42,831 bases of DNA. It comes from Coriobacteriia bacterium (GTDB lineage: Bacteria; Actinomycetota; Coriobacteriia; Coriobacteriales; UBA8131). The stretch is taken from positions 1 through 42,831 of the forward strand of contig WQXH01000015.1 of assembly GCA_009784945.1 (NCBI GenBank), written 5' to 3'. Positions within the stretch are counted from its first letter, which is position 1. Each line of letters begins with the position of its first letter. The position numbers and the translations under genes were made by a program. The notes under the pieces are model-generated. The model saw only the letters and a program-made list of their open reading frames with translations, made no database searches and was not told the DNA's origin. Positions 8,424-38,481 of this stretch are shown here, piece after piece.

Positions 8424-8693
8424 ATGAAGTTTGAATGGGACAAAGCCAAGAGCCAAGCTAACATTGAGAAGCACGACATCTCATTTGAGGAAGCGGCACT
8501 AGCTTTTACCGACGACAAACGTATTGTCGAGCGCGACACCACCCATTCAACTTCTACCGAAACGCGATATTTTCTCTACGGCGATACAGGTCGAGGTATC
8601 GCAACGGTAAGATTCACAATAAGAAACGGCAATATCCGTATCATTGGGGCTGGATATTGGCGTAAAGGAAGGAGCATATATGAGCGCAGTTAA
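8424..8693 (+). CDS. brnT: BrnT-family toxin
   Basis: Ribonuclease toxin of a type II toxin-antitoxin pair, 89 residues. The opening MKFEWDKAKSQANIEKHDISFEEAALAF is the family signature, followed by TRYFLYGDT and RIIGAGYWRKG. BrnT folds like RelE and cuts RNA until bound by BrnA. The toxin gene comes first and the antitoxin overlaps its 3' end by 14 nt, the normal order for this family. The start at 8424 is chosen because the conserved sequence begins there and a promoter -10 box sits 7 nt before it. Confidence 0.9.
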   Translation: MKFEWDKAKSQANIEKHDISFEEAALAFTDDKRIVERDTTHSTSTETRYFLYGDTGRGIATVRFTIRNGNIRIIGAGYWRKGRSIYERS

Positions 8694-8934
8694 ATATACC
8701 AATGCACCAGCTGATGTTGATGCTGCCATGGACGCAGCAGTGCGCGTTAATGATGATTTTTTGCCATCACCGGAATACTTTGCAGAAATGCTGGCAAAAG
8801 AAAAGATTAGTCTCAACGTTGATCGCCATGCAGTAGAGAGCTTTAGAGCTTATGCTAAAGCACATAACCTAAAGTATCAGTCTTTGATGAATCAGGTTTT
8901 GAGCGCTTATGCTAAGCGGCTACAAGCTAAGTAG
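8680..8934 (+). CDS. brnA: BrnA-like antitoxin
   Basis: Antitoxin partner of 84 residues. The N-terminal half (FLPSPEYFAEMLAKEKISLNVD) would wrap the toxin. The C-terminal half (HAVESFRAYAKAHNLKYQSLMNQVLSAYAK) is a ribbon-helix-helix DNA-binding domain that would autorepress the operon. The ATG at 8680 has AAGGAAGGAG just upstream, a strong ribosome site lying inside the toxin gene. An upstream in-frame ATG at 8644 is disregarded because it lacks such a site. Confidence 0.85.
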   Translation: MSAVKYTNAPADVDAAMDAAVRVNDDFLPSPEYFAEMLAKEKISLNVDRHAVESFRAYAKAHNLKYQSLMNQVLSAYAKRLQAK

Positions 8935-9235: not shown

Positions 9236-10483
9236 ATGAAGAGCAATCCAAGAAAACTGAATTCAATCAGAAGAGTGTTCTGGGCACTACTGCGTCGCCC
9301 TGCTCCGTTCGTGCTGACTGCTCTTGCTGTTTCACTCTTTTTGTTAGTTGGATTTGTCGAGAGCGAAAGTGCGCGCGGACTGAGTGACAGCGACGATCCC
9401 AACAGGATTTTTGTTACTGATGTAGCGGGTAGCGAATGCAGTGTTTATTCCCGTAGCGTACTAGATTGGGCTAATCGTGATGATGATAACACTGTCAAGA
9501 TTCATGTCTATCAGCCAGGAGGCCCCACTTTTCAAGATAGTAGCGGCAATGGTTACATCGTACTCCTCTTGACCTGCAAGGGGGTAAAAGTCGATGGCTT
9601 TAACGGCAAATTTGACTATAGTGGCAAGACATGTACGATGATATTTGATGTTACCTATGATACGTGGTTTCGAAATAAAACGAGCCTTTATTCTGGAGTC
9701 GTATACGATCCAGCCGACGAGACAAATAGCTTACGATGTCTCTCTGATATGAATCCAGCCAGCTACACTGGCTCGGATGCTGGCAAGAGATATGTCCAAG
9801 ATCTGTACAACAACCGCTTCAACGGTCGCCAGCTCAAAGACGTAAGTGGAAAGACACCTCATTCCCCAGGGGGGCACAGCGAAGTCTGGTTACAGGGAGG
9901 TCAAATAATTCTTGATGCCAATGGAGGCAAGTGGTCTGACGGCAGCACAGAAAAAACAGTTGATTATTCCCTGAATAGAGACAGCACGGCCAACACATGG
10001 ATTAGCTCAGGGTGGACATTGACGTTACCTGACAGTCCTGAGCCTCCCGATGATGAGTTAAAGTTTGCTGGATGGTGGGATCAAAAGGATTATGACCGAG
10101 ACACGGGAGAGGGAGGAAGACGGGTTTCTGGTGGTGCCTCAGCAGGTGGTGTGAGCGGTGATCTCAATGGCGCAATCCCAGACAGAATCTACGCCCATTA
10201 TGCCCTCAAGCCTGTTGCCGCTGACCCTGGCGCTCCAAGCCCCTGTGAGGCGGCCAGCGAGGGCTGGGGCTGGGTTGCCTGCCCAATAATCACTGCATTG
10301 CAGGGTATAGTTGACTGGGCAATGGAAGGCATCACCGATTTTCTAGATTACCAGTCGCTCAATGAGGGTGGCGACACCATCAAAAACGTTCATGGCGCGT
10401 TCATTCCCATTGCTAACATTGCCTTTGCCATTGTCTTTCTCATTATCATTTACTCAACAGCCATAAGCGGAGGAAGGCAGTAG
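9236..10483 (+). CDS. InlB-repeat membrane protein with CPR VirB6-like end
   Basis: Protein of 415 residues. An N-terminal membrane segment (about 25-41) follows a basic stretch, giving a signal-anchor or signal peptide. The extracellular part has cysteines and, at about 224-325, a Listeria-Bacteroides (InlB B) repeat: LDANGGKWSDGST...FAGWWDQ...RIYAHYA. After a Pro-rich linker comes CPIITALQGIVDWAMEGI, then a C-terminal membrane helix IPIANIAFAIVFLIIIYS. That ending matches the segment lying just before the VirB6-like core in Saccharibacteria/CPR proteins, and the next gene supplies that core. InlB repeats mediate surface binding in other proteins, so a role in cell contact is plausible. The stop TAG shares a base with the next start GTG. 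CPR origin is my pattern recognition, not a search result. Confidence 0.75.
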   Translation: MKSNPRKLNSIRRVFWALLRRPAPFVLTALAVSLFLLVGFVESESARGLSDSDDPNRIFVTDVAGSECSVYSRSVLDWANRDDDNTVKIHVYQPGGPTFQDSSGNGYIVLLLTCKGVKVDGFNGKFDYSGKTCTMIFDVTYDTWFRNKTSLYSGVVYDPADETNSLRCLSDMNPASYTGSDAGKRYVQDLYNNRFNGRQLKDVSGKTPHSPGGHSEVWLQGGQIILDANGGKWSDGSTEKTVDYSLNRDSTANTWISSGWTLTLPDSPEPPDDELKFAGWWDQKDYDRDTGEGGRRVSGGASAGGVSGDLNGAIPDRIYAHYALKPVAADPGAPSPCEAASEGWGWVACPIITALQGIVDWAMEGITDFLDYQSLNEGGDTIKNVHGAFIPIANIAFAIVFLIIIYSTAISGGRQ

Positions 10484-12171
10484 TGTTTAGCAATTACTCT
10501 GTCAAGAAAATCCTGCCACGGCTTATTATTATCGCCATTGCCGTCAATCTTTCCTTTTATATTTGTGCTGTCTTTGTGGACATCAGCAACATCTTGGGAG
10601 CAAACCTCAAGGACTTCGTTGTGAATTTTGGTGGCACTCTTCCTGGTCAGCATGATGGCTTTGGCGAGATTGTTGCAAACATCTTTGGGGGAGCAGTTGG
10701 CATACTGGCTGGGATTGGTCTCGTCCTCCTCATAATCATGAACCTTGGAACGGTGGTCATTGGGATATTGCTGGTCTTTGCAGCTCTGGCTTTGCGAGAG
10801 GTGCTGATAACGGTCTTTATCATTATCTCACCCATTGCCTTTGTCATGTATTTGCTGCCAAACACAGAGAAGTGGTTCAAAAAATGGCTCAGTGAGTTTA
10901 GCCGCATGTTGTTTGTCTTTCCGATGATTGCCTTTGTTTGGGGTGCCACACAGCTGATTACCTTAATCTTGCTTGCAGATGGTTTAGATGTCTTCAAGTT
11001 TGTCATGGTCTGCTTAATACAAGTAGTGCCAGCTCTCACTATCCTTCCCATTATGAAAATGGGCGGCCAAGCTCTGGGGCAGCTACAGGGTCTGGCAGAA
11101 AAGGGCATGGCCAAGACGCCAATCAAAGACATTGGCAACAACCTGGGACAGGCTGCAAAAAGTGGCGGATTGAATGCGGCAGGTCGAGGGCTCAGCAGTT
11201 TAAGCAGCAAAGTTAGAGCGCCTCTTAATAGGAACGAAATAATAATGAGCGGAAAAAACAAGGGGAGAAAGCGATACATGAAAGACGGTGATGGAAATAT
11301 TCGTGACATTGCAAATGATAATAAGGTAATTCCTGAGAGCGCTTTTAGCAAGGGGCGAGGTCTGCGTAGGTTTGGCGGAGCGTTGATTGGGGGAGCTGGG
11401 CGAGGTATAGGCGCTGCTGCTGGCTTTGGTGACGGTGGCCTCACAGAAAAAACCAAGCTGATGGCTGATAGTGCAAAAGGCAACACTAGCAGCGCAACAG
11501 GTACCGAAAATCTAAAGGTTAAGCTCGGCATCAACAAAGCATCGCTACAGGCAGATTTAGACAAGCATGAGTATGAATTGAGAGTAAGGACTACTGGCAA
11601 AAGTGGTGATCGCGTCATTGCGCACGAAGCAGCCAAGTTTGGTGCGGAAGATAAATATAAATCTGGCGTAACAGGCTCAGAATATCGCACTGCACAGATG
11701 GCTGCCGCAATGAACCCGAGCAGCGTGGCCGCACAGGCACGCTTCAGCCAAGTGCAAGACAAGATTGCACAAGAATCACAAGCTATACTTGAAAACTCTG
11801 GCGCGATGAGCGTGAGGGACGCAAACGGTAATGAGCAAAGGGTGAGCGTCGGCAATAACGCCAGCGATGTAATTGCAGGGCTAAAGGGAGAAGGGACAGG
11901 CGCAGCGCTCGCAGGTGCCAGTGCTGACCAGCAGAACATTGCAATACAGGCGGCATCTAAAATGCTGTCAACGCAACTCGCTTCAGCCAGTGGTGAGGGG
12001 GAGGTGGAAGCAATCAAGGGTCAAATTGCAGAACTAAAAACCCTTTCTAATTCGTTACACGGGGCAAATAAAAACATAGGCGCAGCCGTGAATTTCGATG
12101 CAATGAGTCGTGTCGCAGATGACAGAAAAGCAATCATCGACGCACGAAGTCGCGGCGTGGGCGGCGCATAG
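10483..12171 (+). CDS. VirB6/TrbL-like T4SS membrane protein (CPR-type)
   Basis: Polytopic membrane protein of 562 residues. Residues 1-195 contain about five membrane segments beginning NYSVKKILPRLIIIAIAVN, then FVDISNILG, REVLITVFIIISPIAFVMY and a KWLSEFSRMLFVFPMI stretch. The 'YxxKKxLPRLI...N.S...C...VD.SNILG' pattern is one I associate with the VirB6-like type IV secretion proteins of Saccharibacteria and related CPR bacteria. VirB6 forms the inner-membrane channel through which substrate passes. Residues 200-562 are hydrophilic and Ala/Gly/Lys-rich, probably cytoplasmic. GTG 10483 overlaps the upstream stop and has GGAGGAAGG in front, so it is coupled to the upstream gene. A long open frame on the opposite strand here is a codon-bias shadow. 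Confidence 0.8.
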   Translation: MFSNYSVKKILPRLIIIAIAVNLSFYICAVFVDISNILGANLKDFVVNFGGTLPGQHDGFGEIVANIFGGAVGILAGIGLVLLIIMNLGTVVIGILLVFAALALREVLITVFIIISPIAFVMYLLPNTEKWFKKWLSEFSRMLFVFPMIAFVWGATQLITLILLADGLDVFKFVMVCLIQVVPALTILPIMKMGGQALGQLQGLAEKGMAKTPIKDIGNNLGQAAKSGGLNAAGRGLSSLSSKVRAPLNRNEIIMSGKNKGRKRYMKDGDGNIRDIANDNKVIPESAFSKGRGLRRFGGALIGGAGRGIGAAAGFGDGGLTEKTKLMADSAKGNTSSATGTENLKVKLGINKASLQADLDKHEYELRVRTTGKSGDRVIAHEAAKFGAEDKYKSGVTGSEYRTAQMAAAMNPSSVAAQARFSQVQDKIAQESQAILENSGAMSVRDANGNEQRVSVGNNASDVIAGLKGEGTGAALAGASADQQNIAIQAASKMLSTQLASASGEGEVEAIKGQIAELKTLSNSLHGANKNIGAAVNFDAMSRVADDRKAIIDARSRGVGGA

Positions 12172-12188
12172 CCCTCGCCTCACCAACC

Positions 12189-12217
12189 TTGATAAATACG
12201 CCTTAGCCTGTTAAGAT
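12189..12217 (+). promoter_or_regulatory. Leaderless promoter for 12224 gene
   Basis: TTGATA (12189-12194), 17-nt spacer, TAAGAT (12212-12217), then 6 nt to the ATG at 12224. Transcription would begin at or next to the start codon. No ribosome-binding site is present. Confidence 0.65.
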
Positions 12218-12223
12218 ATTATT

Positions 12224-13501
12224 ATGTCCAGCAGCAATCCCAATACCCCACCGAACAACTCTAACGCACCCAACCCAAACACTGGGTCAATGGGCAGCGC
12301 TGCTGTGAGCGGATGCGAACCAGAAAACCCAAACTGCCCTAACGACACTATCGGCCCAGAAGAACAAAAGTGGATTGACTGGTTCAAAGAAGATGATAAT
12401 CATCGAGCGAGTGGCATCCCCGCAAACATTCTTAACAACACCCAGGTTGAGAAGGAAATTACCAAAATCATCAAGGATCGCCTCGACGCGGCACTGCCCG
12501 CAGGCGCAGAAACCTATAGCAATGACAGTGAGAGCTACGACCGTTCGGTTAACAACGCCGACATCAACAACTTTCTCAATGGTGACGAGATTATATTTTG
12601 TCAGCCAATTCTAACCCTGCGCGATGGAGAAAAAACCAATAGGCTGAGCCTGGAATGGGTTAAGCGCGGCAAATACGACAGGAGCATACGCTATATCCTG
12701 CGCGCAATGATTGGCATGTACCTGGTCAAGACAGGCAGCAAGGGCGAAAAGAGTGACGCCGTCTACTTTGCTAAAAACATCCTAAACGAGCTCGGCACCA
12801 ATGCGTATCCAGGTGCCGACGAAGCAACCCTTGGTGCTGATGCGGCATTTATCATATCTCAAGACCCCTCCACAGATTTCTATGCCAGCGGCGTTGACAA
12901 GTCCCATGCATACAAGGGCAGAGGCTTTACCCGAAAGAACTCAGAAAAATGGGCAGACCAAACAAGCGATGGGGTAAAGGGGATAATATTTGGCGGTGGT
13001 GCTATTGAGACTGAGACTGCCAAAGACATTGGAATCAAAGTATTTCCTGACAGAGTAGGCATGGAAGCACTTGAATTCCCCGACAAAGTGGACAGTTACA
13101 GCCAACTCAACAACTCTGGCAAGCGGCGCATTGACGCAATGGCAGAATTTACTCGCACCTTGCTCAAGGAAAAAACCAACGCGGTAATCAATGGCTTTGA
13201 CGGCAGTGACCAGGGGCTGTTGGTTGATGCCTTTCGTCTCTACAAACAGATTTGGGACAGTGGCGGTGATGATGCTGCCCAAGAGATGCTTGGCATGAGC
13301 CCTGGCAACTCCGAAAAAAACATACAAAAAGCAAGAGAGTGCGCAGAAACCCTCTATTGGGAATACGCTGGCAACAGCAACCTGTCGTATTACATGAAAG
13401 AACCGCTCTCTGTGGCAATAGCAGAATTTGTCGGCATCCCAGAAGGCAGTAGAAGAAGGTTCAGGGAAACTGGCTCAGCAGCGAGCTCCAGCGCGGATTA
13501 G
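12224..13501 (+). CDS. Hypothetical soluble module protein
   Basis: Protein of 425 residues, not recognised. The first 50 residues are Asn/Pro/Ser-rich and disordered, with CEPENPNCPND. The rest is helical and soluble with no membrane segment or signal peptide, ending in a Ser/Ala-rich tail. It is therefore probably cytoplasmic. It is transcribed on its own from a strong leaderless promoter, and its stop is followed by the foldable RNA region. Its place between the VirB6-like gene and the hydrolase genes suggests it is part of the module, for example as an effector, chaperone or assembly factor, but nothing in the sequence decides this. Confidence 0.65.
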   Translation: MSSSNPNTPPNNSNAPNPNTGSMGSAAVSGCEPENPNCPNDTIGPEEQKWIDWFKEDDNHRASGIPANILNNTQVEKEITKIIKDRLDAALPAGAETYSNDSESYDRSVNNADINNFLNGDEIIFCQPILTLRDGEKTNRLSLEWVKRGKYDRSIRYILRAMIGMYLVKTGSKGEKSDAVYFAKNILNELGTNAYPGADEATLGADAAFIISQDPSTDFYASGVDKSHAYKGRGFTRKNSEKWADQTSDGVKGIIFGGGAIETETAKDIGIKVFPDRVGMEALEFPDKVDSYSQLNNSGKRRIDAMAEFTRTLLKEKTNAVINGFDGSDQGLLVDAFRLYKQIWDSGGDDAAQEMLGMSPGNSEKNIQKARECAETLYWEYAGNSNLSYYMKEPLSVAIAEFVGIPEGSRRRFRETGSAASSSAD

Positions 13502-13530
13502 TAGTCACCACAGCCAAAAGCAAATAGATA

Positions 13531-13719
13531 TGCTATTCTTTAGGTGCTGAACTTACTTGGTTAACTTAACCTGGTTATGAAATGAATACCTGTCAAGAAG
13601 GGCATCTGTCCCCATTTTAGGTATTGTATTTCAATAACCTGGGTAAGTTCAGCGACTGTAAAGCGGATGCCCTTCTTTATATCTCAGGAGCAAAGAGGCG
13701 GCATCTCCCAAAAGAAGGG
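13531..13719 (+). ncRNA. Candidate structured RNA with alternative pairings
   Basis: The 339-nt gap between two genes contains an RNA-like structure behind an extended -10 box (TGCTATTCT, 13531-13539). A long stem pairs 13546-13556 with 13643-13653 (11 bp), 13573-13583 with 13628-13639 (one bulge), and 13585-13591 with 13619-13625. The apical loop contains AAGAAGGGCATC (13595-13606), perfectly complementary to GATGCCCTTCTT (13666-13677) outside the stem, giving a 12-bp pseudoknot. The same 3' strand (13670-13678) also pairs perfectly with AAAGAAGGG (13711-13719), so the two pairings exclude each other. This is the logic of a regulatory switch. A second promoter at 13761-13788 lies before the next gene. 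Confidence 0.6.
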
Positions 13720-13760
13720 TTGGTTGCTGCGGTTATGAAGCTCTGCACTCATTTTAGCTA

Positions 13761-13788
13761 TTTACATATTTGTGATAATATGTATAAT
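13761..13788 (+). promoter_or_regulatory. Promoter for lipoprotein gene
   Basis: TTTACA (13761-13766), 16-nt spacer, TATAAT (13783-13788). The leader to ATG 13841 is about 45 nt and contains a normal GAGGAGG ribosome site, in contrast to the leaderless neighbours. Confidence 0.6.
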
Positions 13789-13840
13789 GGTAGAGAAAAT
13801 CAACAGCACAATAGAATAATTACTAATTGCGAGGAGGACA

Positions 13841-14353
13841 ATGATGTCTAACCCTAATATAAATGCGCGCGGCAAAGCAGAACAACCAAAAGGAAAAGTA
13901 CTCCGGCGGATTACAGAACTCGCGTTGACATTTACATTGGTCACAGGCGGCGCAACATTGGCCGCGTGTGATGATAACAGCAACAATCAAGGGGTCAATG
14001 AATTACCAGGCAACACGCCAATGGAGCAAACAGTCGAGCAACCCCCAGTCGATGAGCCAACAGTCGTCGAAACCCCGGCGAATAATATAGAGGTCAGCGA
14101 AGAGAATTTTTATCAAGAAGCTCGAGCCGCCGCCGAAGCCCAAGGATGGCGTTTTGCACACACGGGCACGATAGATGTTGATGGGGTTATCAAAAAAGAT
14201 GTGGCGTTTGTTGGAAATAGCACTGGCGCTCACCTCCTCGCATTTTTCGATACGAGCAACGGTAGCATTAGATGGGTGGTTCGTGTCTCAGACAAAATAG
14301 TCGGCGAGGGCAACAGCCTCAGCACCATTCCTAACGTGAATCAATACATGTAA
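13841..14353 (+). CDS. Small secreted lipoprotein
   Basis: Protein of 170 residues with a lipoprotein signal: a basic N-terminus, a hydrophobic core (LALTFTLVTGG), then the lipobox LAAC with the lipidated cysteine at residue 43. After it come an Asn-rich spacer and a Glu/Pro/Thr-rich linker. The folded domain of about 80 residues (YQEARAAAEAQGWRF...GNSTGAHLLAFFDTSNGSIRWVVRV) resembles small beta-rich extracytoplasmic domains. It would sit on the outer face of the cytoplasmic membrane. T4SS modules often carry small lipoproteins, but no named family is recognised. GAGGAGG precedes the start. Confidence 0.7.
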   Translation: MMSNPNINARGKAEQPKGKVLRRITELALTFTLVTGGATLAACDDNSNNQGVNELPGNTPMEQTVEQPPVDEPTVVETPANNIEVSEENFYQEARAAAEAQGWRFAHTGTIDVDGVIKKDVAFVGNSTGAHLLAFFDTSNGSIRWVVRVSDKIVGEGNSLSTIPNVNQYM

Positions 14354-14467
14354 TGCACCTATCACTGATCACCATGCTGGCTCAAGGGGATAGCTAACAC
14401 TGGCGATTATCTGGCAATAATCCAATAATCTAACGTAAAACCCGAGTACGAAAAACAAGTCAGCTCT

Positions 14468-14495
14468 TTGCATACTATAATGTTAATGCTATAAT
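14468..14495 (+). promoter_or_regulatory. Promoter with near-leaderless start
   Basis: TTGCAT (14468-14473), 16-nt spacer, TATAAT (14490-14495), then 8 nt to the ATG at 14504. A second TATAAT lies at 14476-14481. No ribosome site precedes the ATG. Confidence 0.65.
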
Positions 14496-14503
14496 ACTAG
14501 CAT

Positions 14504-17416
14504 ATGCAGTGGGGATACGACTCAGCTCCTGGGGATGAACCAAAGGACAACTCGCAGCCGCGAGATTATTCAGAGGCAAAAGACTACTCCCAACCAGCAG
14601 ATTATTCTAAACCAGCCGACAACTCCCAGTTCCTAGGTAAAGCAGAAAAAGAAGCGCAAGGGTCAGAAAAAGGTTCAGGAAAGATTAAGGACAACAAAGA
14701 GCTGGCCAAGATGGAGCGGTGGCTCTATGGCAAAAGCCCTCAATCAACAGAGACCAATAAAAGCAAAACGCAAGGCAAGGCGCGCTTTTCGGGCAGGATC
14801 AAAAGAAGGATTGGGCTCTCGCTCGGCGGGGCATTACTTGTTGGCAGTGCGGGAATCTTTGGCCCTGGGATGCTAGGTACAACAGGCATCCTTAAATTCT
14901 ATGAGATGCTCAACGGGCACTTTAATATTGGCATTGAATCCATCTCTTCTCGCAGAGCAAACAAGGTCATAGCCAAGCAGATCAACAGCAGCAACCGCAC
15001 GCCGAGTGCTGGGGCACTGTGCAGTGTGCCAGGCAAAATAGGTTGTCGGTACAAAGACATGAGCAACCGCGCCATCAAAAACCTCGAGCGGCGCACCGGC
15101 ATCAGGGTCATCACTGCAAACAGAGCCAGCTTGCCAGGAAAGAGCCCCGTAGCGGGTCTATGGATGCCTGATGGCAAGATTTTGAGTGCCGTGGATTTTG
15201 ACAGGTTGCTCAAAAATGGCGACCCCGAGCTGCGGCGTATGATGCGCCAGGCGATGAAACCACGCGTTGCCGTATGGGCAGGCAAGGCAACAAAGGCGTT
15301 ATTTACCAAGCTCAAGATAGATAAAGCAGGTGGGTTCATCAAGGAAAGAACGGTGGACAAGGCCAGGGATAAAATCAAGGCGCGGCAAAAGGGGTCAACG
15401 GCCAATGTTAATACGAAACCGATACCGCTTTCAGGTGACGCAGATGCAGATGCAGGCGCTAATAGACAAAACTCCGCTGCCCAAAACTTCAAAGAAAACG
15501 TACTGGGCAAACAGCTGGGTTTTGACCTCGATAAAAATGTCACCTCGGCCGCTGCCAGAGGCGCTATCAGGGGTGCCGCCAAAGGCGTAACTGCTGGGGT
15601 TGGTATTATCGGTACGGCAGATATTGCCTGTACGGTGCTCAATATCATAGCCGCCATGGGTTACATATCAAAAGCAATAGGCGCAGAGCAACTGATTGCC
15701 TTTACAACAACCTTTTTATCATCGGTTGATGGACTAAAGGCTGGTAAAGCCACCACGGCTGGTTGGCATACTGCTGGGGAGCTACTGTTTAAGGTTGACC
15801 CAAATACAGGGCAAAACGCCTTTCAGTCCTTTGGCTATGGCATGATGAGTGGAAATTTCTGGGGTGACGAGCTCGACACCATGGAGTTCAAGCTCGGTGG
15901 TGGGTTTGTGGGTGATTTGGTAGATATAAAGAACCAGGTCATCAATTTGGTATCTCCTGGCAACCCCGATGCTGTGCGCGATGCTTGCGGGGTTATTCAA
16001 AACCCATTCGTGAGAGCTGGCAGTTTAGTCGTAGGCGTTGCAGCCATGTTTGTGCCCGGGGTTAATGCTGCACAAATCGCAAAGGTCGCGGTAACTGTGG
16101 GGATAGCTATAGGGCTTTTTGCGGCAATATCATTCCTCGTGCCCGTGGTAACTAGAATGTTAACAGGCGATTTAGTTGGACCAGACACCATGGGTGGCAG
16201 TGCGGGCAACGCAATGACCTCTGGCATGGGGGCACTCTCGGGCAAAAGCGCCAACTCTTTGGGCTTTACCACCATGTCGAGAGCTGAAGCGATTTCCTTT
16301 GACATCAATATACGGCAGCCCTACCTCGCCGAGGTAAGAGAAGACGAACGGCTGGCGGCAAACCCCTGGGATATTACTAATCCGTACTCGGTGGTTGGCA
16401 GTATTGCTGGCGGACTATTTCCGTATCTCAGCGGGGTGTCATGGAAATCAAACCTTGCCAGTTTGAGCAGCCTGGCGTTTAACCCATTCAAGGTGTTTTC
16501 TTCAAGCGTCAGCGCTCAAAGCGCAGAGCGGTACTACGAGGTGTGTGACGATGATGATTACAGAGACCTCAATATTGCAACTGATCCATTTTGTAATCCT
16601 GTGTACGGACTGCCCTTGAGCCTGGCGGAGGCTGATCCTGATGATGTGATGTTGTATATGTACAACAATGGCCATATCGACGACACAGGCAGTCCAAAAT
16701 CAAAATCCTACAAGGATTTCTTGGAAAATTGCGTTAACAATGCCGCCCCGATTGGTTTTTATAACGAGGAGTTAGATGACGACGACATTATGCCCCAGGA
16801 GTGCATTAGGGGCGGCGGAAAGTTCGCTTATGACGAGATGTTCTTTATCTACACCATCGACGACTCTGTGTATCAGATGATGCAATGTATTTTGGATGAA
16901 GTTGGCGAGGCGTGTTATAGCGATGGCATGTCGAGTGGGGGTGGTAGCGGAGCACAATCCGCTGGTCATATTGGTGATGGCGAATTGAGCTTGCCAGTTA
17001 AGCTAGGCACCCCAATGACAAGTCAGTTTGGGTGGCGAACACTCGATGGAGTAGCCAATCTTCACTCTGGCTTAGATTTTGGTGGAGCGTTAAACGACCC
17101 CATCTATGCGGCTGGAGCAGGAAAGGTAACAGCTGCCAACAACGGCTGTGCCAGCACGCCAAATGATGGTTGTGGTGGAGGATACGGCAACTATGTGTAT
17201 ATCGAGCACAGTGACAAAATAAACGGAAATACGATAGTCACCAGGTATGCACATGGAGCACAAGGCAGTGTTTCTGTAAGCGTTGGCGACACGGTTGTTG
17301 TAGGTCAAGAAATAATGAAGATGGCCAACTCTGGCTGGTCACGGGGCGTGCATTTACATTTTGAGGTTCACGTTAATAGCACGCCTGTTGACCCTAGGTC
17401 GTATTTAGGGCTCTAA
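14504..17416 (+). CDS. Membrane-anchored M23 peptidase
   Basis: Protein of 970 residues combining membrane segments with a C-terminal LytM/M23 metallopeptidase. Residues 10-45 carry tandem six-residue repeats of the form DYSxxx/DNSxxx, followed by a Lys-rich stretch. Hydrophobic segments occur at about 110-130, 360-400 and 505-550. The peptidase occupies about 825-970, with zinc-ligand motifs HSGLD (near 853) and HLHFEV (near 949), so it should cut peptide cross-links of peptidoglycan. VirB-type systems use wall hydrolases to pass the cell wall, and this one appears tethered to the apparatus. Gly-rich hinges (SSGGGSG) precede the catalytic domain. I cannot assign the middle 600 residues to a family; a fused channel subunit is possible. 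Two genes follow on the same strand. Confidence 0.8.
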   Translation: MQWGYDSAPGDEPKDNSQPRDYSEAKDYSQPADYSKPADNSQFLGKAEKEAQGSEKGSGKIKDNKELAKMERWLYGKSPQSTETNKSKTQGKARFSGRIKRRIGLSLGGALLVGSAGIFGPGMLGTTGILKFYEMLNGHFNIGIESISSRRANKVIAKQINSSNRTPSAGALCSVPGKIGCRYKDMSNRAIKNLERRTGIRVITANRASLPGKSPVAGLWMPDGKILSAVDFDRLLKNGDPELRRMMRQAMKPRVAVWAGKATKALFTKLKIDKAGGFIKERTVDKARDKIKARQKGSTANVNTKPIPLSGDADADAGANRQNSAAQNFKENVLGKQLGFDLDKNVTSAAARGAIRGAAKGVTAGVGIIGTADIACTVLNIIAAMGYISKAIGAEQLIAFTTTFLSSVDGLKAGKATTAGWHTAGELLFKVDPNTGQNAFQSFGYGMMSGNFWGDELDTMEFKLGGGFVGDLVDIKNQVINLVSPGNPDAVRDACGVIQNPFVRAGSLVVGVAAMFVPGVNAAQIAKVAVTVGIAIGLFAAISFLVPVVTRMLTGDLVGPDTMGGSAGNAMTSGMGALSGKSANSLGFTTMSRAEAISFDINIRQPYLAEVREDERLAANPWDITNPYSVVGSIAGGLFPYLSGVSWKSNLASLSSLAFNPFKVFSSSVSAQSAERYYEVCDDDDYRDLNIATDPFCNPVYGLPLSLAEADPDDVMLYMYNNGHIDDTGSPKSKSYKDFLENCVNNAAPIGFYNEELDDDDIMPQECIRGGGKFAYDEMFFIYTIDDSVYQMMQCILDEVGEACYSDGMSSGGGSGAQSAGHIGDGELSLPVKLGTPMTSQFGWRTLDGVANLHSGLDFGGALNDPIYAAGAGKVTAANNGCASTPNDGCGGGYGNYVYIEHSDKINGNTIVTRYAHGAQGSVSVSVGDTVVVGQEIMKMANSGWSRGVHLHFEVHVNSTPVDPRSYLGL

Positions 17417-17436
17417 CAGGATAAATAGGAGGAAGA

Positions 17437-17973
17437 ATGATTAAGGCAATAACAACTATGAGTACCCAGAAGAAGTATATTCTGGTATCAGTGATTGCCC
17501 TAGTCGTTTTGCTAGCAGTCACAATTATCCCCGCAGCACTTAACAACAATGCAAACGAAGAGCCGAACCCAAGCCCGCAGTCCCCGCCCTCATCCACTCC
17601 CAATGCCACAGTAGCTATTCAGGGCTTTGCCGAGCAAGCCGAGAACATATCTGATGATCGTATTAAGTCAATCGAAGAAAATTTGTTTGGAACTATTGCA
17701 CTCAACAGTGCTAATCCAAACCCTGCTGATGCCGTAATTCGTGAGGGCAGCTACCAACAAACGGTAGCAGACGCTGCAAAACAAATCTTTCATACAACCT
17801 TTATTGTAGATATAACGAGCCTCAAACAATCGTATCGCATCAGCGACCTTTTCTCTCCACTACCCCCTGAAGTCACAGGGCTCTACGACCAAACGACCTT
17901 TGTTCGATGCCTGGACACACATGAGCTGATATACGGTGAGTTCGATTGTCAAACGCTGGGGATGGGTATATGA
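17437..17973 (+). CDS. Single-pass membrane protein
   Basis: Protein of 178 residues with one N-terminal membrane helix (KYILVSVIALVVLLAVTIIPAAL), a Pro/Ser/Asn-rich linker, and an extracellular domain of about 110 residues. The general layout (short inside, helix, linker, small outside domain) resembles VirB8-like or pilus-assembly accessory proteins, but I see no motif that proves this. AGGAGGAAG precedes ATG 17437. Its stop overlaps the next start as ATGA, so it is coupled to the hydrolase gene. Confidence 0.65.
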   Translation: MIKAITTMSTQKKYILVSVIALVVLLAVTIIPAALNNNANEEPNPSPQSPPSSTPNATVAIQGFAEQAENISDDRIKSIEENLFGTIALNSANPNPADAVIREGSYQQTVADAAKQIFHTTFIVDITSLKQSYRISDLFSPLPPEVTGLYDQTTFVRCLDTHELIYGEFDCQTLGMGI

Positions 17974-19826
17974 GGCGGGAGCTTGGCAAACACATCTCCA
18001 ACTGGCGGCTGGTCATAATTGGGATGGTCTTTATATTTTCATCGGTGGTAGCAATGCCTATCGGCCTGGCATTAGCAGCCAACGAAGACGATGGCGCAAG
18101 CACCATCTCAGCTGAGATGCGAAGATACCATGAGCTTGAGCTGCCCTTTTATGGGGATGGCTGCGGTAGTGGCGAGACAGCAGGTGGCACCACTTGCAGC
18201 AGCAATAGCGACATCGAAAATGCAAAAAATGCCGACAAGTCTTTCTTTCTTGGCAGCCCTAGTGAGTTGTCTGCGGCGTGGAGTGATACAGATGAAGCAT
18301 CCATGCAAAGGCTGCTCGATAACTATGGTGATCTTGCTGTTCGTCTAGGCAATAAGTACGATGTGCCCTATGTAGCCATATTGGTGCAAATGCGCTACGA
18401 AGACCCCGAATCGAGATGTGGCGCCAATAACTTTTGGGGCAATGGCTGCCCTCCTGGAACTCACGATGGTGAAGCTAGCATTAAAGCTGCAAATCTAGGT
18501 GAAGGCTTTAATGAGTATGGAAAAACGCTCACTAACGGCTATCATGATCAGGCTATAGGCATCAAAGACCCGAAAGAGTATCTCGAAAAAATCGGGCCGA
18601 CTTGGGTGCAGGGCGATGTTAACGACGCAGGCTATCACTTAATTAACGAAATGAAGAAATCTGTTGATGCCTTGGCGGCCTATATAGAAAAGATAGATTG
18701 GTGCAAGAGTCTGGGCGGCGGCGGTGATTCTGCATCGGGAAGCAACAGCGGAGGCGGCGGCTCAGTGTCTCTGCCAGAAGAAACTATTGCCAAATTAGAG
18801 GCCAGTGACATCAAGGGCAAAGCCAATAGCAACAAAGCTGCATACGAGGCTGGGGCTAATGACGCTGGAATACCGTGGCAGGCAATGGCGGCTGTTCACT
18901 GGCGCGAAGCGAGCATGGATCCTAATCGGTCTATTGCCAATGGCGAGGCCTTAGGTAGAGGCACTAGCATTGATGGCCAGGCGATAGGACAGACACTGTC
19001 AGAAGATGCAGTCATTGCCGCCAACAAATTAGTTAGCATAGCAAAGAGTGTTTATGATGTAGATATTACCTCGCCCTCTGCCTCTTCGGACGATTTTGCC
19101 TGGGCATTTTTGGCCTATAACCGAGGCTATATGTACCAAGACGTTGGAGAGCCCTTTAATAAATCACCTTATGTGATGAATTACTATGACTTAGATCACT
19201 GGGATATGAAATGGATAGAGGCTGATTCGTCTTACCGAGGCAGCCGCTTAAATAACATTGCTGGCAGTGTGAATGTGCAACTAGGCGCTCTGACCGTTTT
19301 TGAGTATCTTGGTGGGGTGAGCGGCGGCGGTAGTGGTGATGATTGCGAGGTTGTGGGCGCTAGTGGTGACCTACCCACAGAAGAAGAGCTCAGGCGAGCG
19401 CTCGATAATGCGGATAGCCTCACTGATGGCTCGGCAATCAATTCTGGAAACAGCACTCCTCAGACCGTCAAGGTTGCCAAGGTGCTCTGGCATTTCTTTA
19501 AAGACGACTTCTCGGTATTGAGTACGTATGAAGGTAGCGGCACTTCTTGCCACGTTGGCTCTAGCAGAGGCATGGGCAGAGGAATAGACCTCATGATTAG
19601 CGATTACCACAATCCAGTGGTTCGCAAACGGATAGAGGCGATTGCTGAGTGGATTAGCGACAACAAGGCAATGCTTACGGTAGTGGGCGTCATCTACTAC
19701 GACAAAATTTGGTATGGAGCCGCAGGAACGCCGTATAGCAGCTGGAACGCATATCACAACCTGAGCAATGATACTCAAGCGCACAGAGATCATATTCACA
19801 TATCAGTAGACGGGTGCAATGGATAG
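17970..19826 (+). CDS. Secreted multi-domain cell-wall hydrolase
   Basis: Protein of 618 residues. The N-terminus has a basic region and a hydrophobic helix (LVIIGMVFIFSSVVAMPIGLALA), so it is exported. Domain one (about 110-250) has NKYDVPYVAILVQMRYEDPESRCGANNFWGNGCP, resembling glucosaminidase/lysozyme-like folds. After a Gly/Ser linker, domain two (about 275-430) has IPWQAMAAVHWREASMDPN, as in lytic transglycosylases. After a second linker, the last 130 residues end in HRDHIHIS and include GRGIDLMIS and VVGVIYYDKIWY, as in the ARB_07466-like C-terminal domain of actinobacterial proteins. It would cut the glycan backbone and so complement the M23 peptidase. ATG 17970 overlaps the upstream stop. 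Which domain is enzymatically active is not decided here. Confidence 0.75.
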   Translation: MRRELGKHISNWRLVIIGMVFIFSSVVAMPIGLALAANEDDGASTISAEMRRYHELELPFYGDGCGSGETAGGTTCSSNSDIENAKNADKSFFLGSPSELSAAWSDTDEASMQRLLDNYGDLAVRLGNKYDVPYVAILVQMRYEDPESRCGANNFWGNGCPPGTHDGEASIKAANLGEGFNEYGKTLTNGYHDQAIGIKDPKEYLEKIGPTWVQGDVNDAGYHLINEMKKSVDALAAYIEKIDWCKSLGGGGDSASGSNSGGGGSVSLPEETIAKLEASDIKGKANSNKAAYEAGANDAGIPWQAMAAVHWREASMDPNRSIANGEALGRGTSIDGQAIGQTLSEDAVIAANKLVSIAKSVYDVDITSPSASSDDFAWAFLAYNRGYMYQDVGEPFNKSPYVMNYYDLDHWDMKWIEADSSYRGSRLNNIAGSVNVQLGALTVFEYLGGVSGGGSGDDCEVVGASGDLPTEEELRRALDNADSLTDGSAINSGNSTPQTVKVAKVLWHFFKDDFSVLSTYEGSGTSCHVGSSRGMGRGIDLMISDYHNPVVRKRIEAIAEWISDNKAMLTVVGVIYYDKIWYGAAGTPYSSWNAYHNLSNDTQAHRDHIHISVDGCNG

Positions 19827-19836
19827 GAGGGGTCGT

Positions 19837-20766
19837 ATGGCAAACAAGAATAGTAATCAACTGAGATACAACAAACGTGCTGTTGTTTTCGTAGCAACAC
19901 TAGCCGCTGTTGTTATTGCCATCATTCTCTTTACTGTTATATCCTCGCTCACTCCAGAAGCAAAAATGAAGAGGGCAATCTCTGGCGAGATTGGACGAAG
20001 CGACTTTAGCATCGGCGAGGTTGTTATCCAAGATCAAGATTGGCTATTGGTGAGAACTTCGTCGGAGGATGCATACCTAAACATTGCCTACTCTGCGCTG
20101 AAAAAGAGTGGAGGGAGTTATGAATTGGTTTTAGGGCCAATCATAGACACCCAGGGCATGACTGCTGAGGACTTCTTTTTGCTTGGAATGCCTGACTCCT
20201 TCATTAAGTACTTCTTTGGCGATGGTACACATTTTGAGTTTAATGAGTTAAGGGAGCGTCACAACCCTGGATGGATTAGCGCCGTTGAGGCAGCTATTGA
20301 GCTTTATGCTAGGAAAGAAGGGGTTAAACCTTGGAGAGTAAGCCTGGTAAAAGATAGTTATGGCTTTGACAATAGGTCTGATGATACACTCACCCCCTAT
20401 AGCAGGACATCATCTTTCAAGGTGGCCTTTGATGAGAATAAAACTAAACTGAGTGTAAAAACAACTGAAGATCTCAAAATGTCAATCAAACTATTTGATG
20501 AATCTGGAAGAGAGGTTTTTTCTGCTGGAGGCTTTAATCATTTTGATAGGTTTTTGCCACTAAGGGCCAATTTGCCAGAGGGCTATGCTGCGGTTAATCC
20601 AACAGGGATGATGACCCTTGTTGATGAGAACACGCCTGATTTGACCCGCACAAACCTGCCGCCTCTAAAAGCTGGCGATGTGGTGAGTCTGCATTACGCC
20701 TGCCCCAAAACCAATCTCAACCCAGAAGACATTTGCAGGGTGTATAGATACGACTATTACTATTGA
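19837..20766 (+). CDS. Hypothetical single-pass membrane protein
   Basis: Protein of 309 residues, last gene of the module. One membrane helix (about 13-38, AVVFVATLAAVVIAIILFTVISSL) is followed by an extracellular region of about 270 residues. That region has a DWLLVRTSSEDAYLNIAYSAL segment and a C-terminal beta-rich part ending in Tyr-rich YRYDYYY. TAGGAGG at 19824-19830 fits ATG 19837, so the ATG at 19819 is not used here. The first coding bases follow closely on the hydrolase stop. Two terminators follow directly. The function is unknown; surface exposure is likely. Confidence 0.65.
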   Translation: MANKNSNQLRYNKRAVVFVATLAAVVIAIILFTVISSLTPEAKMKRAISGEIGRSDFSIGEVVIQDQDWLLVRTSSEDAYLNIAYSALKKSGGSYELVLGPIIDTQGMTAEDFFLLGMPDSFIKYFFGDGTHFEFNELRERHNPGWISAVEAAIELYARKEGVKPWRVSLVKDSYGFDNRSDDTLTPYSRTSSFKVAFDENKTKLSVKTTEDLKMSIKLFDESGREVFSAGGFNHFDRFLPLRANLPEGYAAVNPTGMMTLVDENTPDLTRTNLPPLKAGDVVSLHYACPKTNLNPEDICRVYRYDYYY

Positions 20767-22277: not shown

Positions 22278-23219
22278 CTACCACTGCCAGGCAATGCCTG
22301 AAAACATGCCTCCGTAAAGATCGGTGAAGGTTGTTTGGGCACTGTTGTGTTTTTCCAGGGGTAGGAGTTGTTGTTTGGTGGGTGTGCCTGGGCGCTCGAA
22401 AAAGGTCAGGTGGTTGTACTGCCAGATAATCTCTGGAACTTGCCCAATGAAAAACACCTCAAACCTTGCCTTGAGCGTTGGTTCATGAAACGCCCTGGTT
22501 TCTTCGAGCAAGATTAGGCTCGATGGATCTGCTAATTTTTCATCGGGGGACATGTTAAAGGTTAAGGTGGTAGCCTCTCCGCGCATGAGTGGTTTGTCAT
22601 AGTAGAAGCGATGGCGAAGCCCGCCACTACTTGGCTCTGTCTTTACTTTTGCAGTAGTCGAGGTGACTGTCGCTGGAATAGAACTGCTTATCTCTAGCCA
22701 CCCCACATCATCAACCAAAGAGATGAGCTTGTAGGTCTCCTTGGTTTCTTGCCAGAGCTTGTCTTTGACCAAGGTCTTTACCTCAACGTATTCTTGAATG
22801 GTAGCGTTATGGGGCATGACGTTTGCACTAAAAGGCAGAGGTGCCATGGTGTAGCGCGCGCTCAAAAGTTGTATGGCAAGCTCTCTGAGTGCTGCATTTT
22901 CGTGTTTGGCTATGGCGTCGGTTTTGAGACCAACTCGCTTTCCGTAAGAAATGCGGCGCTCAGATAGTTTTGGCAGGGCTGCTGTCTCATTAGTCAGGGC
23001 ATAGACTGCTATGAGCAAACTAGCAGCTTGTTTGTCTGGCAGCGAGTTAATTGCAGACACAAAGCGCACCTTGAGGTCAGTGAAATCTTGACTAGCCCCA
23101 CCAAGAACTGCCAAAAGCGTAGAGGCATTACGCAGGCGCGCGGCAACAAATCCCCTGTCTTTTCTCAGATACATGAGGTCTGTTATCAAATCTTCGTATA
23201 TGCCACTGTTTTTGTTCAT
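22278..23219 (-). CDS. Hypothetical protein, minus strand
   Basis: Protein of about 313 residues, not recognised. The N-terminal 140 residues are helical (IYEDLITDLMYLRKDRGFVAARLRNASTLLAVLGG, ASLLIAVYALTNET). The C-terminal half is beta-rich and may be an immunoglobulin-like or ligand-binding domain (TTAKVKTEPSSGGLRHRFYYDK, TTLTFNMSPDEKL). There is no signal peptide. It is the only minus-strand gene in the interior of the island, running against its neighbours, and so may be an independent cargo gene. ATG 23219 was chosen because the protein-like sequence begins there. An in-frame ATG at 23264 is possible, and neither has a clear ribosome site. Confidence 0.6.
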   Translation of the reverse strand: MNKNSGIYEDLITDLMYLRKDRGFVAARLRNASTLLAVLGGASQDFTDLKVRFVSAINSLPDKQAASLLIAVYALTNETAALPKLSERRISYGKRVGLKTDAIAKHENAALRELAIQLLSARYTMAPLPFSANVMPHNATIQEYVEVKTLVKDKLWQETKETYKLISLVDDVGWLEISSSIPATVTSTTAKVKTEPSSGGLRHRFYYDKPLMRGEATTLTFNMSPDEKLADPSSLILLEETRAFHEPTLKARFEVFFIGQVPEIIWQYNHLTFFERPGTPTKQQLLPLEKHNSAQTTFTDLYGGMFSGIAWQW

Positions 23220-23351
23220 GCATCCAAGTTTAATCCAACTTTGCCACAAAGAGACCTGAGCCATTCATACTGGCTGGCAAACGTGCTTGTTTATATTCGT
23301 ATGCCTTTGCTTCTTACCACTGAGGCAAAGGTAAAAGAAAAGGAGAATTTC

Positions 23352-23657
23352 ATGGCAAAGACAACAGATTTAAGCCCCTCCCTTTTTGGGGGTGCCGCCA
23401 GAGAGTATACGGAGCTGACTGGCTTGAAAAAATGGGAGGCACGCCAGCAATGCGGCCAGATAGTCAAAGCCACTATGGCTGCCACCTTACACGAACAAGG
23501 CAGAGGACTCCTAACCTCTACCGCACTGGAAAACGTTGGAGCACTCTCAGCGCTTGAAGCGCACCTCACCCAAATAGCCCCTCAAGGTGCAGAGCGCTAC
23601 CGCCATATTGTGGATGCCTATGCTCTTGGCGCTGCCCAAAAGATAGCGAGGTGGTAG
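23352..23657 (+). CDS. Hypothetical 101-residue protein
   Basis: Small Ala-rich, mostly helical soluble protein (LTGLKKWEARQQCGQIVKATMAATLHEQG, LSALEAHLTQIAPQGAERYRHIVDAYALGAAQKI). It starts at ATG 23352 after AGGAG. It overlaps or abuts the next gene and so opens a small two-gene unit on the plus strand. The function is unknown. Confidence 0.65.
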   Translation: MAKTTDLSPSLFGGAAREYTELTGLKKWEARQQCGQIVKATMAATLHEQGRGLLTSTALENVGALSALEAHLTQIAPQGAERYRHIVDAYALGAAQKIARW

Positions 23658-23659
23658 AG

Positions 23660-23992
23660 GTGAGCTTATGCGACATAATCACTACTGCTCTCATTGCGCT
23701 CGGCGTTCTTTTCTTCGTTGCTTGCCTCACCTTAACTTGGGTGGACTCAGCATTGGAGTCTCGCCGCCGTAGGCAAAAAGAGCGCAAAGAGCGTTTGCGC
23801 CAAGAAGAAGAGAGGCTTGCTTGCAATGCGGGATTGCTGGGCTCTTTTTTTGAGCTTCATGCAGACAGTATGCAAGCGCGCCAAGCACTGATTCGTGAGT
23901 CCTTTATTGCGTCTCAGGCAAACACAGCTCAGCAATCTCCCAATAAAACTATGGAGTTTGAGGTGCTGCCTTGCGAGCCAAAATGGCGTTAA
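23660..23992 (+). CDS. Small membrane protein with charged tail
   Basis: About 110 residues. One N-terminal membrane helix (ITTALIALGVLFFVACLTLTWV) is followed by a strongly charged helical stretch (SRRRRQKERKERLRQEEERL) and a less ordered end. The GTG at 23660 has GAGG 8 nt upstream; GTG 23651 in the same frame is an alternative that overlaps the previous stop. It is probably an accessory membrane protein of the conjugation block, but this is only position-based. Confidence 0.6.
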   Translation: MSLCDIITTALIALGVLFFVACLTLTWVDSALESRRRRQKERKERLRQEEERLACNAGLLGSFFELHADSMQARQALIRESFIASQANTAQQSPNKTMEFEVLPCEPKWR

Positions 23993-24012
23993 AGAGTGTA
24001 TTTGAGGGCTTC

Positions 24013-24041
24013 TTGACAGACCTACTTGTTCATTTTACAAC
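24013..24041 (+). promoter_or_regulatory. Promoter of the conjugation operon
   Basis: TTGACA (24013-24018), 17-nt spacer, TACAAC (24036-24041). The leader to ATG 24234 would be about 190 nt. It contains a perfect 7-bp hairpin, AAGGCCA (24181-24187) with TGGCCTT (24211-24217), ending just before the GAAAGGA ribosome site, so it could modulate translation. Confidence 0.55.
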
Positions 24042-24233
24042 AGCGTTTTTTGTAGCCACAAAACTGAGTCTTTGCCCTTACGCACCTCTGTAAGCTGCTT
24101 GCACACACCTGTCTCATCGCTTGGATAAGCACGTGCCCCAACCATTTCAAAAACAAGCGTTATGCGTTGCAATAGATAGCAAGGCCAACGCAAGCAGAGC
24201 AAAGAATAACTGGCCTTGAAGAAAGGACACGCA

Positions 24234-24866
24234 ATGCCAACAACAACTATCACGAAGTACAAAACCATTATGGCTGACCCGCCTTGGGAGACAGAACAAC
24301 ACGGAGCTCGGCGAGGAGCAGTGCACCACTATAAGCTTATGAGCGTAGACGAGATTAAGGCCATGCCCGTAAGTGAGCTGAGTGCAGACGATGCTCACTG
24401 CTGGCTCTGGGTCACAAATGCCTCGCTTCGCTATGGCTATGAGGTGCTTGAAGCCTGGGGCTTTACACCAAGAAGCCTGCTTACCTGGATAAAGCCACGC
24501 ATTGGCCTTGGTCAGTATTTGAGAAATAGCACCGAACACCTCATGTTTGGCACAAAGGGAAGCGCTCCGCTTAACTACAAAGGGCAGCCCACGTGGATGT
24601 TTGCACCTTTGCAAGAACACAGCCACAAACCAGAAGAGCAGTTTGCCGTCATTGAGCGTATCTCAAATGCGCCTTACCTTGAGCTCTTTGCCAGGCGGCC
24701 TCGCCAGGGCTGGGACATCTGGGGTAACGAAGTAGCCTCTGATATAGAGCTGGCAAGATACCCTGTGCCGCGCTACTCAACAAAGTATGGGCGCTACATG
24801 CAAAGGCAGGCAGCGCTGGGAGATCTTAGCCGCAGCCTGAGTAACACCAAGACGGAGGCGATATGA
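24234..24866 (+). CDS. MT-A70 family adenine methyltransferase
   Basis: Protein of 210 residues of the MT-A70 family, which transfers a methyl group from S-adenosylmethionine to adenine N6. The catalytic DPPW is at residues 15-18 (MADPPWETE), followed by LLTWIKPRIGLGQYLRNSTEHLMFGTKG and LELFARRPRQGWDIWGNEV, all standard for the family. No restriction endonuclease is near, so it is probably a solitary methyltransferase that protects the transferred DNA from host restriction. GAAAGGA lies ahead of ATG 24234. Its end carries overlapping start codons for the next frame (ATGAATGAG). Confidence 0.9.
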   Translation: MPTTTITKYKTIMADPPWETEQHGARRGAVHHYKLMSVDEIKAMPVSELSADDAHCWLWVTNASLRYGYEVLEAWGFTPRSLLTWIKPRIGLGQYLRNSTEHLMFGTKGSAPLNYKGQPTWMFAPLQEHSHKPEEQFAVIERISNAPYLELFARRPRQGWDIWGNEVASDIELARYPVPRYSTKYGRYMQRQAALGDLSRSLSNTKTEAI

Positions 24867-25049
24867 ATGAGCGAAAGACCTCTATTGAAACGAGTGCTCA
24901 CGGCAGTGCTCATGATTTCTGCAAGTGTGTGGCTTGTCAGCTGGAGCTTGAGCCAACTCGCACAAATCTGGTGGATGCTACTGCTTGTAGCAGTGCTGGC
25001 AGCTTTGGGGCTTTTAGGGTATCGCCTGTGGCAAAACAGGCGTTGGTAG
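24867..25049 (+). CDS. Small two-helix membrane protein
   Basis: Protein of 60 residues with two likely membrane helices (VLTAVLMISASVWLVSWSL and WWMLLLVAVLAALGLLGYRLW) and basic ends (RPLLKR, RLWQNRRW). It begins immediately after the methyltransferase stop, implying translational coupling. The alternative frame opening at 24863 is also open to 25399 but gives a low-complexity sequence in the overlap, so this frame is preferred here. It may anchor or modulate the coupling protein encoded downstream. Confidence 0.65.
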   Translation: MSERPLLKRVLTAVLMISASVWLVSWSLSQLAQIWWMLLLVAVLAALGLLGYRLWQNRRW

Positions 25050-25072
25050 AAATGGCAAGAAAGGCAATTATC

Positions 25073-25399
25073 ATGGACAATGCGCAAAACAACAACTCAA
25101 GTGAGACTCCCATACAAAAGTCACGTGGCACAGCCCAACCACAAAAAGACGCCGCAAATGGCAACCGTACAAAGGCTGCCAAGATGGGACGCCCTGCTTC
25201 GAGCAGTACTGTGTACTTAGTGCCTCAGTTTAGAGACCCCCTAGATATTGAGCTTTTGGGCAAGGCGCTCATTTCCATTGCTATGAAGCTGCCGCCACCT
25301 GAAGAGGGCGCAGGCGAGCGCTCTGATGGTCGAGAGCTAGGCGGCAAGGAGCTTAGCAGCCAGCAGCCAGCAGGAGCAAAAGATGCCTTGGAAGACTGA
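25073..25399 (+). CDS. Hypothetical protein upstream of virD4
   Basis: Protein of 108 residues, hydrophilic, with a disordered Asn/Gln/Ala-rich start and a short conserved-looking core (STVYLVPQFRDPLDIELLGKALISIAMKLPPP), then an acidic, Gly-rich tail. AGAAAGG lies 8 nt before ATG 25073; an in-frame ATG at 25052 lacks a ribosome site. It overlaps the start of the coupling-protein gene by 17 nt, so the two are probably co-translated. The function is not known. Confidence 0.6.
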   Translation: MDNAQNNNSSETPIQKSRGTAQPQKDAANGNRTKAAKMGRPASSSTVYLVPQFRDPLDIELLGKALISIAMKLPPPEEGAGERSDGRELGGKELSSQQPAGAKDALED

Positions 25400-27662: not shown

Positions 27663-27784
27663 ATTGTTTGGCAGCAGGGCTGATTGTCGCATCGGCTGTC
27701 GCATCGACCGACGCATCGCGTTGGCTATTTGTGCGCTAAAGCAAGGGCTACAAGCACAAAGTTGGGCTTTTTGGGATATGACTG

Positions 27785-27836
27785 ACTTAGCGTCTGCAAA
27801 GACGCTAAGTAACCCAGAAACCTCCAGGTTTCTGGG
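27785..27836 (+). promoter_or_regulatory. Tandem perfect hairpins before Replic_Relax gene
   Basis: Two perfect 11-bp hairpins lie 2 nt apart. The first is ACTTAGCGTCT (27785-27795) with its complement at 27800-27810 and a GCAA tetraloop. The second is CCCAGAAACCT (27813-27823) with its complement at 27826-27836. Neither has a T tail. The strong AAGGAGG and ATG 27861 follow. They may be an RNA processing or stability element, an attenuator, or a protein binding site. Confidence 0.6.
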
Positions 27837-27860
27837 GATTGAGCCTAAGGAGGCGTACCT

Positions 27861-28727: not shown

Positions 28728-28783
28728 GTTCTCAAAGCCAGCTGTCTACTGGGGCAAAGTGAATAATTATGACAAATACGGAC

Positions 28784-28812
28784 TTGATTCTGAATACAAT
28801 CGGAGTTATAAC
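28784..28812 (+). promoter_or_regulatory. Promoter for integrase gene
   Basis: TTGATT (28784-28789), 17-nt spacer, TATAAC (28807-28812). A TAAGGAG ribosome site (28837-28843) precedes ATG 28850, so the recombinase is transcribed on its own. Confidence 0.6.
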
Positions 28813-28849
28813 AGAGTATAAGTGAATAATAAGCAGTAAGGAGAATATC

Positions 28850-38389: not shown

Positions 38390-38481
38390 CAGGGGTGTAA
38401 TGGGACAGAGGGGCTAGTGTCCCAAACGCCACAGGGGAACTTGGGACACCAGCCCCGTCCCTCTGTCCCATTACAGCCCTG
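38390..38481. repeat. Large palindromic intergenic repeat
   Basis: TGTAATGGGACAGAG (38396-38410) is complementary to CTCTGTCCCATTACA (38461-38475), flanked by CAGGG/CCCTG. Inside, GTGTCCCAA (38417-38425) pairs with TTGGGACAC (38441-38449). The structure ends near the stop codons of both queT and the MFS gene, so it may also terminate both convergent transcripts. It shares motifs with the repeat at 30871-30941. Confidence 0.7.

Follow-up and report, generated by a model that had tools for sequence, protein, structure and literature searches.

This locus raises the question of whether an intergenic segment at positions 13531-13719 of the window (the whole 42,831-nt stretch of DNA analysed here) encodes a regulatory RNA, and whether that RNA switches between two pairings. 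The preliminary description had proposed a structured RNA with a long stem, a loop complementary to a strand outside that stem, and a second, downstream partner for the same strand. All three pairings are exact: 13546-13556 pairs with 13643-13653, AAGAAGGGCATC at 13595-13606 is the perfect complement of 13666-13677 (12 bp), and CCCTTCTTT at 13670-13678 is that of 13711-13719 (9 bp). When folded, 13546-13680 reached -47.5 kcal/mol (z -5.45), with none of 200 shuffled sequences equally stable, and the hairpin ranked second among all 110-nt windows of the 42.8 kb after GC regression. A 12-bp perfect inverted repeat occurred in 0.08% of shuffled 189-nt sequences and a 9-bp repeat in 6.9%. The 12-bp duplex is worth -19.4 kcal/mol. 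Because chance would give about 0.3 pairings of 12 bp within 200 nt when the whole window is searched, this match alone is only suggestive, and homologues decide its reality. Tandem duplication of the region was considered and set aside as weak (P 0.052). At 38396-38475, in the chromosomal part, a near-perfect inverted repeat forms the window's most stable hairpin, possibly a terminator. Coordinates of the features discussed below are given in Table 1.

Table 1. Features of the window copy of the RNA and of the gene that follows it.
Feature	Position	Strand	Detail
Extended -10 element, TGC-TATTCT	13531-13539	+	6 nt before basal stem
Main fold	13546-13653	+	Basal stem 13546-13558 with 13641-13653; side hairpin 13559-13571; apical stem 13573-13592 with 13618-13639
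Apical loop strand of pseudoknot, AAGAAGGGCATCT	13595-13607	+	Conserved in all copies
GCGAC: last two stem bases plus start of 11-nt linker (13654-13664)	13652-13656	+	Invariant in 8/8 copies
Pseudoknot 3' strand, GGATGCCCTTCTT, pyrimidine-rich, able to pair with Shine-Dalgarno sequences	13665-13677	+	
Local hairpin that, in the window copy, takes up the strand also used by the pseudoknot	13665-13706	+	-18.5 kcal/mol
AAAGAAGGG, 9-bp alternative partner of the preliminary description	13711-13719	+	Perfect complement; ensemble probability 0.009
P0002 promoter-like site TTTACA-16-TATAAT, between RNA and gene	13761-13788	+	11/12 consensus matches
Downstream gene P0002, lipoprotein-like, 170 aa	13841-14353	+	Translation

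Searches by BLAST, Rfam and neighbouring genes yielded no relatives of the RNA. No Rfam 15 family reached its gathering score for the region or for the other copies, the best sub-threshold matches being eukaryotic microRNA models or lying outside the fold. By DNA similarity, the window's own genome returned only the segment itself, 100 relatives and plasmids returned nothing, and among phages two records shared only a 35-nt stretch (E 0.1). Likewise, the neighbours P0001, P0002, TrbL-like, M23 and P0004 had no useful homologue in relatives, viral contigs, plasmids or phages. With BLAST, Rfam and neighbour synteny all empty, the family came to light only through a covariance model (R1) built from the window sequence 13540-13710 alone. 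Over 340 genomes of the window's class, R1 gave four further matches at E ≤0.001, namely on contig C25 of the window's own genome (E 3e-12) and in genomes of the same order (G310, E 5e-7), the same family (G006, E 8e-5) and the same genus (G001, E 3e-4), all of which carry the same loop and the same tail as the window. An exact search for AAGAAGGGCATC gave two more copies in the window's own genome, L007 on C5 and L009 on C10, scoring 26-34 bits with R1. Because R1 recovered only two of the four own-genome copies in the large scan, its count of 4 in 340 genomes is a lower bound. A second covariance model (R2), built from seven copies with the basal stem alone as pairs, found an eighth that was absent from its building set (L091 in G001, 70.8 bits, E 1.2e-15), while its scores on 35 viral stretches pre-selected for GGCGAC...GATGCCCTTCTTC were all at chance level (maximum 18.4 bits). 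About 0.5 Mb more from G001, G006, G008 and G009 contained no further copy, and R1 found none in 325 Saccharibacteria-class genomes, where a single-sequence model can miss divergent members. The sample is thus eight sequences from four genomes of one bacterial order, the window's own genome holding four of them.

All eight copies share a common plan: a -10 box, a basal stem, usually a three-way junction, a loop with the consensus AGAAGG(G/A)CA(U/C)C, the GCGAC motif at the stem foot, a linker, and a knotting 3' strand, GGAUG(C/U)CCUUCUU. Covariation was computed on a sequence-based MAFFT alignment of these copies. For the basal stem, 88/88 cells were paired and 6 of the 11 base pairs showed double-sided changes, a count somewhat biased towards the models by which the copies were recovered. 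The loop-to-tail pseudoknot was paired in 92.3% of cells and showed double-sided changes at three pairs: G-C to A-U in L066, with G-U in L068, and both U-A to C-G and U-G to A-U in L091. The covariation score was 0.379, compared to 0.138 (sd 0.024) after shuffling; none of 500 shuffles scored as high, and slid partners reached at most 0.14. This covariation is not circular, since neither R1 nor R2 contained the knot as a pair. In every copy 10-11 nt of linker separate the stem from the knot, and a side hairpin creating the three-way junction is predicted in seven of the eight (side hairpin and apical stem are per-sequence predictions, outside the covariation test). Because 10-11 nt is a short distance for bridging a straight arm of about 30 bp, we infer that the junction would bend the apical arm back. 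Altogether, the proposal of a structured RNA is borne out by a fold beyond chance and by homologous copies with compensatory changes, and the alignment identifies the 12-bp pairing of loop and tail as a conserved pseudoknot, with compensatory changes seen in independent copies. The folded RNA family is apparently undescribed, as judged by comparison with Rfam 15.

The idea of a mutually exclusive switch fared less evenly. Its 12-bp half is the conserved pseudoknot, but the 9-bp alternative has a negligible share of the ensemble in the window copy and is not conserved across copies. The preliminary description had missed the local hairpin that competes for the 3' strand, which has a pairing probability of about 0.99 in the pseudoknot-free ensemble and was not seen as a conserved element when the eight copies were compared. 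Downstream partners for the tail strand beat shuffled sequence in only two of the eight copies, at about the 1-2% level each, and a conserved alternative fold or pairing was not found among the eight. Switch behaviour of the window RNA is possible and unproven, because the 9-bp alternative is weak and not conserved.

The promoter box reported just upstream of the fold is indeed there, as an extended -10 element without a clear -35. Each of the eight copies has a -10-like hexamer 5-7 nt ahead of the stem, matching TATAAT at five of six positions in seven copies and at four in the window copy (background for 5/6, 2% per site), and it is preceded by a TGn extension in seven of the eight. Given the fixed spacing between promoter and stem, a transcript start at the stem foot is the simplest interpretation. 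Downstream, each copy is followed by a same-strand gene at 60-285 nt, and no T-run of five or more, of the terminator-like kind, occurs between fold and gene in any of the eight copies. The linked genes recur in type: L070 and L071, from two bacterial families, precede secreted He_PIG/ChW repeat proteins of the Ig/ChW surface type, and L007 and L072 precede zinc-ribbon proteins. L091 precedes an isochorismatase-domain protein, L009 and L073 precede proteins without an assigned family, and P0002 has no significant Pfam family. Since a same-strand gene follows in eight of eight copies, no T-run intervenes and downstream gene families recur, we favour a cis-acting function, in which the family would be an orphan cis-regulatory leader at the 5' end of mRNAs, a reading that we hold to be reasonably probable.

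Several observations count against a leader. The same-strand orientation is only moderately improbable, the gap to the gene is 160-285 nt in four copies, and no alternative fold is conserved. In the window, the promoter-like site between the RNA and P0002 complicates reading the RNA as a leader of P0002 alone. Pairing of the tail with the Shine-Dalgarno sequence of its own gene was no better than with those of control genes in copies other than L071, where the tail pairs best with its own gene's Shine-Dalgarno sequence together with GACAUC (-14.4 kcal/mol, in the top 4% against 173 Shine-Dalgarno sequences of control genes); cognate-specific anti-Shine-Dalgarno pairing is thus unsupported except in L071. 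The main rival is that the copies are multicopy stand-alone small RNAs acting in trans, whose GAUGCCCUUCUU strand or AGAAGGGCAUC loop would bind target mRNAs upon knot opening. In its favour, one genome holds four copies, every copy has its own promoter, P0002 has a separate promoter-like site, and the tail GAUGCCCUUCUU pairs with control Shine-Dalgarno sequences as well as with its own. Against it count the missing terminator-like T-run after the fold in every copy, the constant presence of a same-strand gene and the recurrence of downstream gene families, and we regard this reading as rather unlikely.

The spacing of promoter and stem is also consistent with a simpler role at the 5' end, in which a stable stem at the transcription start would sense nothing and only shield the mRNA against 5'-end-dependent decay, given that in all copies the transcript would begin at the stem. 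Conservation of the loop sequence, the GCGAC motif and the linker length, however, goes beyond what a simple stabiliser needs, which leaves this role improbable.

The genomic setting bears on where the RNA came from. The window copy sits within a conjugative-type element encoding a VirD4-like protein, a Replic_Relax protein and a serine recombinase overlapping a tRNA-Pro gene, and the closest relatives of the core module are from Saccharibacteria (L039, VirD4 61%) and Actinobacteria. Compared to L039, a contig of the same Saccharibacteria genome as L063, the element core (22278-30811) gave 70% over 22278-23264, 68% over 24216-24866, 61% for VirD4, 59% for Replic_Relax and 55% for the recombinase. 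The 3' end of the recombinase gene (28850-30811) overlaps the opposite-strand tRNA-Pro gene at 30666-30742, and such an overlap with an opposite-strand tRNA gene recurs in relatives (L039, L040 and L042; tRNA-Leu, tRNA-Val and tRNA-Ala); the recombinase elements apparently form a tRNA-targeting family. The secretion block at 9236-20766 (TrbL-like, P0001, lipoprotein, M23 peptidase and P0004) is syntenic with Saccharibacteria locus L063, at 32-58% identity, and L063 adjoins genes that resemble dnaA, dnaN and recF when read from their translations. P0001 has one clear homologue, in the Saccharibacteria genome, and no other turned up among 295 genomes of the Saccharibacteria class or in 150 relatives of the window's genome. 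Patescibacterial type IV secretion systems are reported to be homologous to the monoderm conjugation machinery (PMC12102498). The match of the element core to L039 points to possible gene exchange between Saccharibacteria and a bacterium with a larger genome.

L063, the only syntenic locus, is without the RNA, its intergenic region beside the P0001 homologue being neither alignable nor unusually stable. After that homologue, at 13100-13270 of L063 on the minus strand, lies a 10-11-bp inverted repeat, CCGCCACCTT ... AAGGTGGTGG, 3' of a promoter-like site, with a fold z of -0.24, within chance. Because L063 lacks the RNA while other contigs of the window's own genome carry three further copies, the window RNA was probably acquired from the host side. 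The segment 2061-7811 of the window encodes a ParB_N-like fragment, a MobC/NikA-like protein, a MobA/VirD2-type relaxase and a second serine recombinase (DUF4368), and seems to be a mobilisable element in its own right, next to the conjugative one; at 8424-8934, two adjacent small genes have translations that resemble, by eye, a BrnT/BrnA toxin-antitoxin pair.

A long imperfect palindrome, intergenic, inside a mobile element and present in several copies in the genome, might also be an element that works at the DNA level, for example a MITE, an integron attC-like site or the origin hairpin of the conjugative element. Against this, copies occur outside the conjugative element and in other genomes, the promoter is fused to the fold, G-U pairs are present in the plus orientation, and the own-genome copies are strongly diverged from one another. 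The core boxes of attC sites are RYYYAAC ... GTTRRRY, and the ends of the copies, GCCAAAC/GTTTGGC or GCTGAAC/GTTCAGC, are off this consensus, so that comparison of the end sequences speaks against an attC site; a DNA-level element altogether seems highly improbable. That the hairpin and its complementary strands arose by chance, as the empty DNA and Rfam searches might suggest, is already refuted by the homologues, with eight copies showing compensatory change and one found blind far above the pattern-selected viral controls, and the probability of this reading is negligible.

Returning to the cis-regulatory leader, its mode of action can be outlined as follows. Transcription would start from the extended -10 promoter where the basal stem begins. 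In the RNA from 13546 to 13677, the basal stem would lead, usually through a three-way junction, to an apical arm; that the loop of this arm pairs with the strand just 3' of the stem, as a pseudoknot, is shown by conservation and compensatory change. Transcription would then continue into the downstream gene. Forming or breaking of the knot, under the influence of a ligand, a protein or another RNA, would free or sequester the pyrimidine-rich 3' strand, and this would set the translation or stability of the downstream mRNA. Such knot-based control is the likely mechanism of a leader of this kind, and it is put forward as a proposal because pairing of the tail with cognate Shine-Dalgarno sequences did not exceed control outside L071.

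A bolder, more doubtful extension is that the family constitutes a new class of ligand-sensing riboswitch specific to one bacterial order, which would control surface and zinc-ribbon proteins via its loop-to-tail pseudoknot and would have been taken up by a conjugative element with a Saccharibacteria-type secretion locus to put the element's own lipoprotein under host control. An orphan RNA with a defined fold, start site and linked genes makes the hunt for a ligand or target directly testable, and, carried by a conjugative element, it would exemplify the use of a host's regulatory RNA by mobile DNA.

Among known systems, the replication-control leaders of IncB/IncI plasmids have a pseudoknot between a loop and a distant strand upstream of rep. 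They resemble the family described here in having a long hairpin whose loop pairs with a strand otherwise able to sit in a downstream hairpin, but the present family has no rep downstream, and its copies are chromosomal and lie before unrelated genes. 6S-like RNAs likewise combine a long interrupted hairpin with their own promoter, whereas the family here is not matched by the Rfam models, is multicopy and has a conserved pseudoknot. Pseudoknotted translational riboswitches, for example the preQ1 classes, have been reviewed (PMC11625349). Like these, the present RNA, if a leader, would form a structured 5' region with a conserved pseudoknot beside a strand able to pair with Shine-Dalgarno sequences; unlike these, it has no Rfam match, its fold is larger and different, and cognate Shine-Dalgarno pairing rises above control only in L071. 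Candidate structured RNAs upstream of genes have also been found computationally in microbiome surveys (PMC8040213), and the family described here is similarly a computationally found structured RNA located upstream of genes.
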